From Oryzomonas sp. (GTDB taxonomy: Bacteria > Desulfobacterota > Desulfuromonadia > Geobacterales > Pseudopelobacteraceae), in the NCBI GenBank assembly GCA_031292255.1, contig JARLHN010000044.1, positions 62,001 to 126,000 on the forward strand: 64,000 bases of DNA, written 5' to 3'. Positions 6,426 to 44,369 of the stretch are shown here, piece by piece; the stretch's first letter is position 1, and every line of letters starts with the position of its first letter. The translations under genes and the position numbers were made by a program. Below the pieces are notes generated by a model. It was not told where the DNA came from. It searched no databases and saw only the letters and a list, made by a program, of their open reading frames with translations.

Positions 6426-6965
6426 GCTATATTCAGCTTTTGTTGCCGTTTTGAATGTCTGCTTCCTTGGCTATAATAAACTTAAAGATGAACACACAAT
6501 CTAACCCGGCCCGTGCAACTCCGTGAACACAGGGCATGCCCTTTGGGGTGCTGAAACAGACTATGCTAATGTTACACGGTGTGTTATTGCAGGGATAAAT
6601 TTACAAGCCGCCATGTTACTGAAACGGGGGACAAGTGGTATTGAGCATTACGGACAATTTAATGTGCACAAACTAAATATGCCGTTTGGATATGTCTGCC
6701 TCGTATGCGATTTCTGTTCGTCGGGCCAGAGTTTTGCCTGCGGCTTCCTTCAGATTCCGGGTCACCCCGGACACCCTTGCTGTTCGGCTAACGGTTCCCA
6801 CAATCAGGGTCCGCAGAGGACTTGCACCTCCAAGTCACAAATCAGCTACCATGGCTGATTTGATGGGGCTTACGCCCCACGCGCCCTGCCGGGCGCACAA
6901 TAAGGAAAGGACTGAGTCGAAAATCAGCCCTTTCCTTTTAAACAATATATTCCATTTTGCTAAAT
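6426..6965. other. Non-coding stretch with four consecutive hairpins (6839-6937)
   Basis: No convincing gene was found: the two overlapping plus-strand open frames (6523-6858 and 6686-6991) lack ribosome sites and protein-like composition. From 6839 there are four back-to-back stems: AAATCAGC/GCTGATTT (6839-6861), TGGGGC/GCCCCA (6864-6879), GCGCCC/GGGCGC (6881-6896), and AAGGAAAGG plus CTGA pairing with TCAG plus CCTTTCCTT (6902-6937). The last is followed by TTA and would terminate transcripts. The density of GC hairpins suggests a structured RNA or a remnant of a mobile sequence. 6426-6685 shows nothing I can name. Confidence 0.6.
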
Positions 6966-30350: not shown

Positions 30351-30695
30351 GACTATCTGTCCAAACCTTTTTCCGCCGATGAACTGCTTGCGGCCGTTAC
30401 CGGCCGCATTCGTCGCCATGAAATGATAACGTCACATCACGGCAATTCCGTCTTTCATAAAGAACAAGGGATTCTCCGCACAAAGATTACCGTTCGGGAA
30501 AAAGAGGTTCTACTCATGGTAGGACAGGGTGCCACATCAAAAGAGATTGCCGAACGTTTTGGGATCTGTTTGAAGACCGTGGAGGTACATCGGGCGAACC
30601 TGATGAAAAAGCTCGACGCCGCCAACGCCGCTTGTCTTGCGCGCTGGGCCGTCATCGCGGAACAGATGGATCGTGATTCCGATAACGCTTCATAG
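30351..30695 (+). pseudogene. Response regulator lacking most of its receiver domain (LuxR-type)
   Basis: The frame from 30351 reads DYLSKPFSADELLAAVTGRIRR, the last strand and helix of a receiver domain, then a complete LuxR-type helix-turn-helix (TVREKEVLLMVGQGATSKEIAERFG and KTVEVHRANLMKKL). The first hundred or so residues expected upstream are absent; instead there are the tRNA remnant and terminator. An internal ATG (30423) could still express the DNA-binding domain alone. The truncation point marks a recombination junction. Confidence 0.7.
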
Positions 30696-30842
30696 CGTTT
30701 ACGGTTAACGATCATTATCCGGCAGAGTACAAGACAGTATTTTGTCACTCATTACCGACATTTTGAGTCCAAAAGCGTAGATCACCATACGTCATATCAA
30801 TATACATCCAATAAAACTAGTCACATAACGCATCAATGTTAT

Positions 30843-30859
30843 TTGGCATTCATATTGCT
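30843..30859 (+). promoter_or_regulatory. Sigma-54 (RpoN) promoter
   Basis: TTGGCAT-TCATA-TTGCT: the -24 GG (30845-30846) and -12 GC (30857-30858) are ten bases apart, as the RpoN consensus requires, and flanking bases fit TTGGCAC-N5-TTGCT with one change. Transcription would begin near 30870, just before the riboswitch. An enhancer-binding activator would be required. Confidence 0.75.
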
Positions 30860-30883
30860 GCCTGATCTGACAAACTGCTTACC

Positions 30884-30975
30884 ACAGACCTCTCTGTAAA
30901 AAGCAAACCTGGAGCAATCCAGGGACGCAAAACTACGGGTCCTCATTGAGTGGACAGCCGGGTTGCCGAAAAGAG
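30884..30975 (+). promoter_or_regulatory. GEMM-I riboswitch, A20 variant (probable cyclic AMP-GMP sensor)
   Basis: Core elements in order: GCAAACC (30903-30909), a TGGA-GCAA-TCCA hairpin with a GNRA loop, GGGACGCAAAAC (30922-30933) with the intercalating A, a second arm, and AGCCGGGTTGCCG closing the first stem. The base before GCAAACC, equivalent to G20 of the Vc2 riboswitch, is A (30902). In published work on Geobacter GEMM-I RNAs, A at this position is associated with recognition of 3',3'-cyclic AMP-GMP instead of cyclic di-GMP. Controls the DUF1566 lipoprotein gene at 31072. Confidence 0.85.
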
Positions 30976-31071
30976 GGCGCATAAGTCACAAATGACGCCC
31001 TTCCTGATTCAAGGAACGGGCATTTTAGTGATGCCCTCGTCATACCACAAACGCCAGTCAGAGGTGCTATT

Positions 31072-32739
31072 ATGCGAAAGTCAAATTCCCCTGGAACTCT
31101 TCCAGGATTTTCAAACCAATTCAGCGTGTTGATACAAAATATCATTGTTAAGGCGGGGCTTTTACTCGTGATATTGAGCAGTATGCTCCTTGCCGCCTGC
31201 GGTAATGGAGGTGGCGGTAACGCAACCTCCTCTGATTACGGCGCCCCGGTTCCCAATACCGTATCCGGCACCGTTCTGTTTCAAGGGGCACCGTTGCCAG
31301 GCGTCACCATTACAGTCTTCAATAATAATACAAATCCCAGTACCGTCTTTGCCACTACAACCACTGATACGAACGGCAACTACAGCATTCCCGGTCTACC
31401 GACCGGTTGGGATGCAACACCAAATTTCTCCTTCGTTGCAACCAAGACAGGATACTCGTTCAATCCTTTCATGGCGTCTAATCCAACAGGAAACCGGGCA
31501 AATTACTTATGGGATCCTGCGCCGCAAACCTGGTATGTTAATACCGGCGCCAATGCCATCAGGGCTGGTTTTAACGGTGTGTTCAGCAACCAAAATGGTG
31601 GTTCGCCTATCATATTTAACGTTATAAACTTTAATTCACTAAAAAATAACTCCGTAACCGGCGCCAATTTCAACGCATACAACGGCAGCAATCCGTTGGT
31701 TAGTTTAGCTGCTACCGGCCAGACGACCAGTTATGCCATCGGCGATGACGCTTCGCTGGCAAAAGGCGTTGCTTGGCCCGGCACGCGATATGTTGACAAC
31801 CAAGACGGAACCATCACCGACAACTTGACCGGTCTCACTTGGTTGAAAAATGCCGGTTGTTTCACCCCCACGGTGTGGACCAGCGCTTTGTCGGACGTCA
31901 ATCAACTGGCAAGCGGTGCCTGCGGCTTGAAAGACGGCTCAACGGCTGGACAATGGCGATTGCCCAACATCGTTGAACTGGAGAGCATTGTTGACGTCTC
32001 GGCCAGCAATCCGGCAATTACTCCGGGCAGTCCGTTCACCAATGTATCCAACGGTATTTACTGGTCTTCGACCGCCTATTTCGGGGGGCAGGAAGGCACG
32101 ACGAACGCATGGTCCATACGTCTTGGCGATGGAAGTTACTTGAGCGACACCATCAACAACGTCATGGCAACTTCGAACAATGCGGTTTGGGCCGTAAAGG
32201 GGACCGGCGGCGGAGCGGTCAAGCTGCAGGCAACGGGAATGTACGTCTTCTTTGCAAACGGCGACGATGGGAGCGTGGAAAGCGGCGTGCCGCTCCCTGC
32301 TCCGCGCATGATCGACAATGGCAACGGCACGGTGACCGACTCGTTGACCGGCCTCGTCTGGCTTAAGCAAGCCGACTGCATAAATGCCACGTGGGCGGGA
32401 GCCATAGGTGCCGTCAACTCCCTTGCAAGCGGTCAGTGCGGCCTGACCGACGGTTCCGCGGCCGGCAGTTGGCGAATGCCTAACCGCAAAGAAATGCAGA
32501 GTCTGGCTGACCGGATGCAAACCAATCTGGCCGACTATTTGAATGAAACGTTCTTCAGCGGCATGGCCGGCGTCAGTTCTCAGCCTGCGATATTCAACAA
32601 TTTCGTTGGGGCCCACTATTATTGGACTTCAACTACCAACGCCGCCAATCCCGGCGAGGCATGGACCGTTTACAGCTGTGACTACGGCGTGTACGACATC
32701 GCCAAAAGCAACACGGGGTATACGCTGGCGGTGCGATAG
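31072..32739 (+). CDS. Riboswitch-controlled lipoprotein with two DUF1566 domains
   Basis: 555 residues. An N-terminal signal ends in a lipobox (LSSMLLAACGN), followed by a Gly-rich linker, a carboxypeptidase-regulatory-like beta domain (VSGTVLFQGAPLPGVTITVF...DTNGNYSIPGLP), and two DUF1566 repeats (RYVDNQDGTITDNLTGLTWLK...WRLPNIVELESIVD and MIDNGNGTVTDSLTGLVWLK...WRMPNRKEMQSL). DUF1566 proteins are recurrent targets of GEMM riboswitches in Geobacter and are thought to be surface adhesion or extracellular proteins. Lipidation predicts outer-membrane anchoring. ATG behind AGAGGTGCTATT. The stop lies 19 bases from the convergent AEC gene. Confidence 0.9.
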   Translation: MRKSNSPGTLPGFSNQFSVLIQNIIVKAGLLLVILSSMLLAACGNGGGGNATSSDYGAPVPNTVSGTVLFQGAPLPGVTITVFNNNTNPSTVFATTTTDTNGNYSIPGLPTGWDATPNFSFVATKTGYSFNPFMASNPTGNRANYLWDPAPQTWYVNTGANAIRAGFNGVFSNQNGGSPIIFNVINFNSLKNNSVTGANFNAYNGSNPLVSLAATGQTTSYAIGDDASLAKGVAWPGTRYVDNQDGTITDNLTGLTWLKNAGCFTPTVWTSALSDVNQLASGACGLKDGSTAGQWRLPNIVELESIVDVSASNPAITPGSPFTNVSNGIYWSSTAYFGGQEGTTNAWSIRLGDGSYLSDTINNVMATSNNAVWAVKGTGGGAVKLQATGMYVFFANGDDGSVESGVPLPAPRMIDNGNGTVTDSLTGLVWLKQADCINATWAGAIGAVNSLASGQCGLTDGSAAGSWRMPNRKEMQSLADRMQTNLADYLNETFFSGMAGVSSQPAIFNNFVGAHYYWTSTTNAANPGEAWTVYSCDYGVYDIAKSNTGYTLAVR

Positions 32740-44275: not shown

Positions 44276-44369
44276 GGAAGCACTACGGTCGCTGGTGGGC
44301 CAGCCGGTCTTCAAAACCGGTTGGGTGGATGAGAAATTTCCCCGGTGGGTTCGATTCCCATGTGCGCCA
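44276..44369 (+). tRNA. selC: tRNA-Sec(TCA), acceptor 3' strand four bases short
   Basis: 94 bases. Anticodon arm CCGGT-CTTCAAA-ACCGG gives anticodon TCA; a long variable arm and T arm GTGGG-TTCGATT-CCCAT follow. The 5' acceptor strand is GGAAGCAC (eight bases, as in tRNA-Sec), but the 3' strand reads GTGC directly followed by GCCA, so the expected TTCC opposite GGAA is missing. The D stem is also imperfect. Either this is a pseudogene or a variant with a shortened acceptor stem. It lies after the molybdenum cofactor genes, matching the use of Mo and Sec in formate dehydrogenases. Confidence 0.75.

Follow-up and report, generated by a model that had tools for sequence, protein, structure and literature searches.

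The riboswitches described so far that come closest to the one reported here are the GEMM-Ib RNAs of Geobacter, such as those of Gmet_0970 (pilM) and GSU1761 (pgcA), which carry an A at position 20. In Gmet_0970 the change A20G converts selectivity for cyclic AMP-GMP (cAMP-GMP; 3',3'-cGAMP, hereafter cGAMP) into selectivity for cyclic di-GMP (c-di-GMP) (PMC6456294), a G20A mutant of a GEMM-I RNA has been used as a cAMP-GMP sensor (PMC11352751), and in a crystallised, cGAMP-bound riboswitch A14 lies next to the pair C15:G40 (PMC6274999). Changes in lower P2 also alter selectivity (PMC9262584). In G. sulfurreducens every gene controlled by a GEMM-Ib riboswitch was transcribed less once gacA had been deleted (PMC6456294), and the known cGAMP switches are therefore taken to be ON switches. 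The pilM switch is of an ON design in which the terminator overlaps the aptamer and sequesters the ligand-pairing C; the Cd1 riboswitch of Clostridioides difficile has a separate terminator and antiterminator and is OFF (PMC9262584). Here we describe the leader of a lipoprotein gene (31072-32739) in a 64-kb stretch of Oryzomonas sp. DNA (the window), which belongs to an assembly of 3.72 Mb in 44 contigs, 88.46% complete (G000). All leader features lie on the + strand. We give about an even chance to the reading that this leader joins a sigma-54 promoter to a cGAMP-preferring OFF riboswitch, making an 'activator AND NOT cGAMP' gate.

An A20 aptamer and its candidate ligand

The aptamer occupies 30893-30971, where it scores 71 bits with the Rfam model RF01051 (cut-off 35) and 68 bits with RF03167 (c-di-GMP-I-GGC; cut-off 59, E 5.9e-14). 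An initial annotation, made from the letters alone, had proposed a full GEMM-I core with GCAAACC and a GNRA hairpin; every stated letter is present, the P2 cap being GCAA, and both Rfam models agree. It had also placed an A at the base equivalent to Vc2 G20, and in the RF03167 alignment A30902 indeed aligns with the consensus G preceding GCAAACC, the ligand-specificity position (PMC6456294), so that the RNA shares its base 20 with GEMM-Ib. At the base of P2, G21 (30903) forms a pair with C46 (30928). The A47 equivalent, stacked between the two ligand bases, is 30929 (A41 in PMC6274999), and the C92 equivalent, which pairs the ligand's G, is 30966 (C75 of the pilM-type aptamer; PMC6274999), a position assigned from J1/3 (G74-C75). 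Rfam clan competition keeps the label c-di-GMP-I-GGC, which we rejected as a description because 30929 is A where the consensus has G after GACGC; if, as we infer, 'GGC' refers to bases 20, 47 and 92, an aptamer with A20 and A47 falls outside it. The window aptamer thus resembles Geobacter GEMM-Ib in its GEMM-I fold, A20, A47 and C92, but differs at the base of P2, where it has G21:C46 and the crystallised aptamer has C:G.

RF01051 finds 14 aptamers above cut-off in G000 (a fifteenth match, L029, at 28.8 bits, lies below it and is not counted). By bases 20 and 21 they comprise four A20/G21, six G20/C21, two A20/C21 and two G20/G21. Both A20/C21 copies carry TACTAAACC, in which the order A then C agrees with the crystallised cGAMP aptamer. 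The A20/G21 group, of which the window aptamer is the top scorer, corresponds in its core to a classic c-di-GMP aptamer carrying the mutation G20A. In relatives, 135 of the 141 best-scoring GEMM-I matches were read, leaving out two tandem neighbours and four others.

Whether the messenger is available was addressed by a search for a Hypr GGDEF cyclase, as the initial annotation had suggested. By the Hypr rule (a Ser/Thr position) of PMC6456294, three (L177, L178, L182) of the 30 GGDEF domains read, from 34 found in G000, combine Ser/Thr at that position with GGDE[F/Y]. The whole frame of L177 (L226) begins with a part matching receiver domains, and its GGDEF part is closest in the PDB to 6d9m, an endolysin fused to a response-receiver diguanylate cyclase (1.3e-66), followed by the diguanylate cyclase 2wb4 (4.9e-41) and PleD 9g85 (5e-41). 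We take 6d9m to be the fusion structure of GacA (Gmet_1914). Because a Hypr-type GGDEF domain is closest to this chain, the G000 cell probably makes cGAMP through a GacA-like Hypr cyclase, and the presence of such a cyclase, like that of a surface gene as target, is a further likeness to the Geobacter GEMM-Ib systems. It is plausible that the window aptamer senses cGAMP. Weighing against this is the spread of the A20/G21 pattern, which among the matches listed (80 of at least 118 stretches) occurs in Firmicutes, Chloroflexi, Omnitrophota, Planctomycetota and others. A20 alone is therefore not diagnostic of the ligand, and we rejected it as proof of cGAMP. The proposed tie between A20 and cAMP-GMP is supported by the A20G effect in Gmet_0970 and weakened by the many phyla and by G21:C46 in place of C15:G40.

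The sigma-54 site

The site TTGGCATTCATATTGCT (30843-30859) has GG at 30845-46, a spacer of ten bases and GC at 30857-58, the -24/-12 arrangement, and matches 12 of the 17 letters of the G. sulfurreducens RpoN consensus TTGGCACGGTTTTTGCT (PMC2725144). The predicted transcript start would lie near 30870. The best sigma-54 score of the window leader, 20.5, was reached by none of 3000 base shuffles; for the four own A20/G21 copies, 0, 6, 6 and 7 of 3000 shuffled leaders reached the leader's own score. The window as a whole has 12 sites scoring at least 19, both strands taken together (0.094 per kb). Such a site is present in the 75-nucleotide (nt) leaders of all four own A20/G21 aptamers and of none of the ten other own GEMM-I aptamers. 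The GG-N10-GC element that the initial annotation had named thus not only is present but recurs, and by this recurrence sigma-54 control is well supported. Two circumstances reduce the weight of the count: the threshold of 19 was chosen after the four own scores were known, and L018 and L024 resemble paralogues, so that the independent count is nearer three.

A sigma-70 scan of 30696-31100 found no match, where shuffles gave 1.0 expected, and the window leader's sigma-70 score of 4.7 is the lowest of the 14 own leaders. The other three own A20/G21 leaders score 7.2 to 8.0, which makes a second promoter conceivable for them and tells to some degree against an exclusive role of sigma-54.

Beyond G000 the coupling fades. 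A score of at least 19 was reached by three of the 135 relatives' leaders: 1/18 A20/G21, 1/2 C20/G21, 1/75 G20/G21, 0/39 G20/C21 and 0/1 A20/C21. Of the relatives' 18 A20/G21 leaders, 16 have a sigma-70 score of at least 6, eight with an exact TTGACA. Among the A20/G21 leaders of named genomes, 81 in all, L333 alone (19.5) reached even 18; at least three of the 81, in G015, G047 and G055, are sites that had entered the counts above. When all fetched loci were taken by one pattern with duplicates removed, 19 or more was found in 5/99 A20 leaders (the four own and L333), 1/6 C20, 0/69 G20 and 0/1 T20; in further family loci no A20 leader reached 19, save an own copy fetched again. We therefore rejected the sigma-54 site as a general trait of A20 aptamers: the coupling is uncommon and largely confined to G000, since the leaders of relatives and named genomes are almost all without the site. 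L452 of G085, from a further genus, has a homologous leader with C at base 20, the site TGGCATGAGAAATGCT (sigma-54 score 20.0) and, by eye, the same platform as the window leader. Our literature search on GEMM-I with RpoN, sigma54 or DUF1566, which covered few subscription papers, found no description of the pairing; 'riboswitch' does not occur in the main text of the RpoN regulon paper (PMC2725144), and it occurs only once, in the reference list, in a survey of sigma-54 regulons (PMC12316311).

One finding weighs against use of the site: a profile search did not find rpoN (PF04552) in the G000 assembly, although all of the 11 other genomes searched have the gene. In the sister genome G005, rpoN lies in a block with LptC, LptA-like, ABC, S30AE, HPr kinase and RapZ genes. 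This 11-kb block has only four matches in G000, each of at most 90 bases, a comparison that is weak alone because it was run without a positive control from another block. HPr kinase was likewise not found in G000, and 27 of 30 sigma-54 activator matches there exceed 150 bits. Since the neighbours of rpoN are missing too while the activators remain, its absence is most likely an assembly gap; we rejected a true loss, given the unmatched G005 block and the missing HPr kinase.

Expression platform and direction of the switch

A terminator search over 149 aptamers separated the classes. It was positive in 20 of 22 A20/G21 leaders (the window and L045 gave none), and none of these 20 terminators overlaps the aptamer, 18 of them beginning more than 15 nt after it. 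For G20/C21, 41 of 45 leaders have a terminator, overlapping the aptamer in 40 of the 41, and the G20/G21 leaders are mixed (66/77 with terminator, 19 overlapping, 43 starting more than 15 nt away).

In the window, four strands follow one another. The P strand (30889-30896, CCTCTCTG) is the 5' side of an extended P1; the A strand GAGGGCG (30973-30979) is at once the 3' side of P1 and the 5' side of an antiterminator; the T strand (30996-31002) pairs with 30973-30979 or else opens the terminator-like hairpin GCCCTTCCT-GATTCA-AGGAACGGGC (30997-31021), which is followed by a weak U-run, ATTTTAGT. Because P1 (CCTCT with AGAGG) and the antiterminator are mutually exclusive, ligand binding should favour termination. 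Antiterminator and terminator are likewise mutually exclusive and share one strand, as in OFF riboswitches. The terminator does not overlap the 3' strand of the aptamer, either in the class or in the window, where it begins 26 nt past the aptamer, unlike an ON platform. The strands stand in the order P/A/T/H, as in Cd1, where the bound ligand brings about the terminator (PMC9262584); the window differs from Cd1 in having A at base 20, in belonging to another bacterium and in its sigma-54 promoter. The separate terminator (an OFF layout) and the sigma-54 promoter equally set it apart from Geobacter GEMM-Ib.

This platform is shared. We aligned 17 homologous leaders with the GAGGGC platform using MAFFT (11 A20, 5 G20, 1 C20). 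The antiterminator (GAGGGCG with CGCCCTT) is paired in 94.6% of 112 cells and the terminator (GCCCTTC with the 3' arm) in 92.9% of 112 cells; with partners slid by 1 to 3 columns, the values fell to 37 to 73% and 33 to 63%, respectively. L059 was misaligned by MAFFT and is absent from both counts; in it, by eye, GAGGGCTA pairs with TAGCCCTC. In the window the antiterminator and terminator have energies of -12.5 and -13.1 kcal/mol. This antiterminator exceeds those of the other three own A20/G21 copies in stability (-10.1 to -10.2 kcal/mol), and the terminators of L017, L018 and L024 have -16.0, -16.3 and -10.1 kcal/mol.

On this layout OFF is the likelier direction. In the mechanism that we propose, sigma-54 holoenzyme, opened by an enhancer-binding protein, would start the transcript near 30870, and the nascent RNA would fold the A20 GEMM-I aptamer, which A20 and the GacA-like Hypr cyclase suggest would prefer 3',3'-cGAMP. 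With ligand bound, P1 would retain the A strand, leaving the T strand free so that the terminator could form; with no ligand, the A strand would pair with the T strand and polymerase would read through. The output of the gate would be a surface lipoprotein with adhesin-like Lcl_C domains. The initial annotation had the gene under two locks, which implies that expression needs cGAMP; this is probably wrong, as the shared platform has the layout of a ligand-OFF switch.

Several results weigh against an OFF switch here, or against its strength. Two-sided changes occur in one cell only for the antiterminator, matched by 99 of 500 shuffles, and in two cells for the terminator, matched by 24 of 500; compensatory changes being few, the pairing argument is carried by conservation and not by covariation. 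A shuffle test of P1/terminator complementarity gave p <=0.05 in only 5 of 20 A20/G21 leaders, and plain minimum-free-energy folding of the leader does not retain P1. When the leader was folded without ligand at increasing lengths, RNAs ending at 31000-31015 showed the antiterminator and those ending at 31020-31040 the terminator hairpin, the latter even without P1; imposing P1 carried a penalty of about 7 to 13 kcal/mol. These folds omit ligand and tertiary contacts and are not decisive for direction. The window's hairpin is followed by a run of four T, the shortest among the 17 leaders (5 to 8 in the other 16; 5, 7 and 6 in the own copies L017, L018 and L024) and short of the strong U-run of an OFF riboswitch, and two automatic searches missed this terminator on the + strand. 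With the weakest U-run of the 17, the window copy's own direction is less certain than that of the platform, and its OFF response may be weak.

The opposite arrangement, a sigma-54 promoter with a cGAMP ON switch such that ligand and RpoN activator are both required, has the precedents of pilM and of the gacA mutant in its favour. It also draws on the terminator hairpin that forms without P1, and on the HD-domain genes that stand behind A20/G21 aptamers in four genomes, where negative feedback would be sensible if these enzymes cleave cGAMP. The pilM terminator, though, acts by sequestering the ligand-pairing C, from which the window's terminator lies well clear, and the A/T antiterminator competes with P1; we consider an ON switch improbable. 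Somewhat less improbable is that the window copy is a decaying switch, its promoter functional and its terminator too weak, so that the promoter alone sets expression. The short T run and the failed automatic searches fit this, as does an extra hairpin, GGGCATTTTAGTGATGCCC (31018-31036, -9.7 kcal/mol), which overlaps the 3' arm of the terminator and for which inspection by eye gave no counterpart in the other 16; a sister copy, L225, moreover precedes an apparently degraded frame. Against it stand the highest-scoring aptamer and the most stable antiterminator of the four, and we think decay unlikely.

The ligand is a separate matter. The aptamer might still prefer c-di-GMP or accept both messengers, A20 with G21:C46 being a mild change only; the many phyla with A20/G21, the influence of lower P2 and the occurrence of A, G and C at base 20 on one platform agree with this, while the G20A GEMM-I RNAs that serve as cAMP-GMP sensor and were crystallised with cGAMP speak for a real shift. 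We regard this as possible but doubtful. That the -24/-12 match is accidental and another promoter is used seems most improbable of all: the unfound rpoN, the sigma-70 scores of the three other own leaders and the commonness of bare GG-N10-GC (48 of 149 leaders of 130 nt) would favour it, but the division of the site between own A20/G21 and other own leaders, the signs of an assembly gap and the activator domains that remain oppose it.

If the OFF reading of a cGAMP switch is true, it shows that this messenger also represses, the cGAMP riboswitches that we found described being ON switches; under the sigma-54 coupling, if true, the output of cGAMP would also depend on an enhancer-binding protein and on the signal that this protein receives. 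A wider reading, which we hold only tentatively, is of one lineage's small regulon of cGAMP OFF riboswitches behind sigma-54 promoters, in which base 20 would swap among G (c-di-GMP), A (cGAMP) and C on a constant platform. Since one platform recurs with G, A or C at base 20, the FIST orthologues described below included, these leaders offer a natural series for ligand change in riboswitch evolution.

The lipoprotein and related leaders

The reading frame 31072-32739, preceded by a likely ribosome-binding site AGAGGTG (31060-31066), encodes 555 amino acids. Pfam profiles confirm the annotated surface lipoprotein with double DUF1566 (now Lcl_C, PF07603; 143.6 bits in two stretches) and CarboxypepD_reg (37.7 bits); a lipobox LAAC with Cys43 was read by eye. 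A PDB search with the protein gave no match, and its likeness to the surface adhesin Lsa25 is weak (38.8 bits, cut-off 260). While it shares the PF07603 domain with Lcl_C surface proteins, its N-terminal part is not shared in 56 genomes outside G000, where no match with E up to 1e-20 reaches residues before 168. Some matches extend across both Lcl_C domains, such as one in G001 that covers residues 213-544 at 38%. Among 30 Lcl_C loci fetched, a GEMM-I RNA lies upstream in the window's own and in L257 (weak matches in L240 and L258, E 0.26, were left out of the count), and L269, fetched by aptamer pattern, is a third case. The L269 aptamer is A20/G21 and that of L257, by eye, G20/C21; the Lcl_C genes of both were confirmed. 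The target layout is accordingly less unusual than first thought, with GEMM-I preceding Lcl_C genes in two other genomes.

The other own A20/G21 targets are a pro-kumamolisin-type protein (L223), a 131-residue protein without Pfam match followed by receiver and HD-domain (HD-GYP-like) genes (L224), and, by eye, an apparent degraded frame of the 131-residue protein with a resolvase gene (L225). HD-domain (HD-GYP-like) genes stand behind A20/G21 aptamers in four genomes (own L224, 3801-5919; L078, L091, L102), the L078 and L224 proteins being 43% identical over 324 positions. HD-GYP enzymes have been named as cGAMP-degrading (PMC11352751), and the arrangement suggests feedback on cyclic dinucleotide breakdown.

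Base 20 itself varies between close relatives. L046 and L106, from two species of one genus, precede FIST-domain orthologues (74% identical) and share one platform but differ at base 20, which is A in one and G in the other; from their sequences this is a natural swap of the specificity base. C20 aptamers occur in L443 (two), L444, L445, L452, L048 and L055, with four in G084.

Near the leader, a stand-alone 90-residue LuxR-type helix-turn-helix protein (GerE, 60.4 bits) is encoded at 30423-30695 (+), upstream of the sigma-54 site. Elsewhere the window holds a selenocysteine tRNA gene (44276-44368, +; 55.2 bits) and a match to Group II intron D1-D4-3 (6665-6771, -; 54.2 bits).

Two further GEMM-I arrangements were seen. 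At G000:C42:77295-77533 (L229 796-1034), two unlike aptamers stand in tandem ahead of one gene: first one of the A20/C21 (cGAMP) type, which in the own copy was computed to overlap its terminator, and then a canonical G20 c-di-GMP-I. The tandem is present in five of six loci compared (own, L030, L031, L032, L033) and was not found in L034; in the own copy, L030, L031 and L033, a following AGTACCT can, by eye, form a helix with AGGTACT, which comes later and close to the start codon. The tandem may be a two-messenger gate. In L153, L048 and L088 (and, by similar letters, L044) a GEMM-I terminator is aimed at the 3' end of a convergent zinc-ribbon gene, presumably FmdB-like, whose frame ends 77-116 nt past the aptamer; base 20 is A, C and A, respectively, and G in L044. 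The arrangement in L153, L048 and L088 is possibly an antisense-acting riboswitch.

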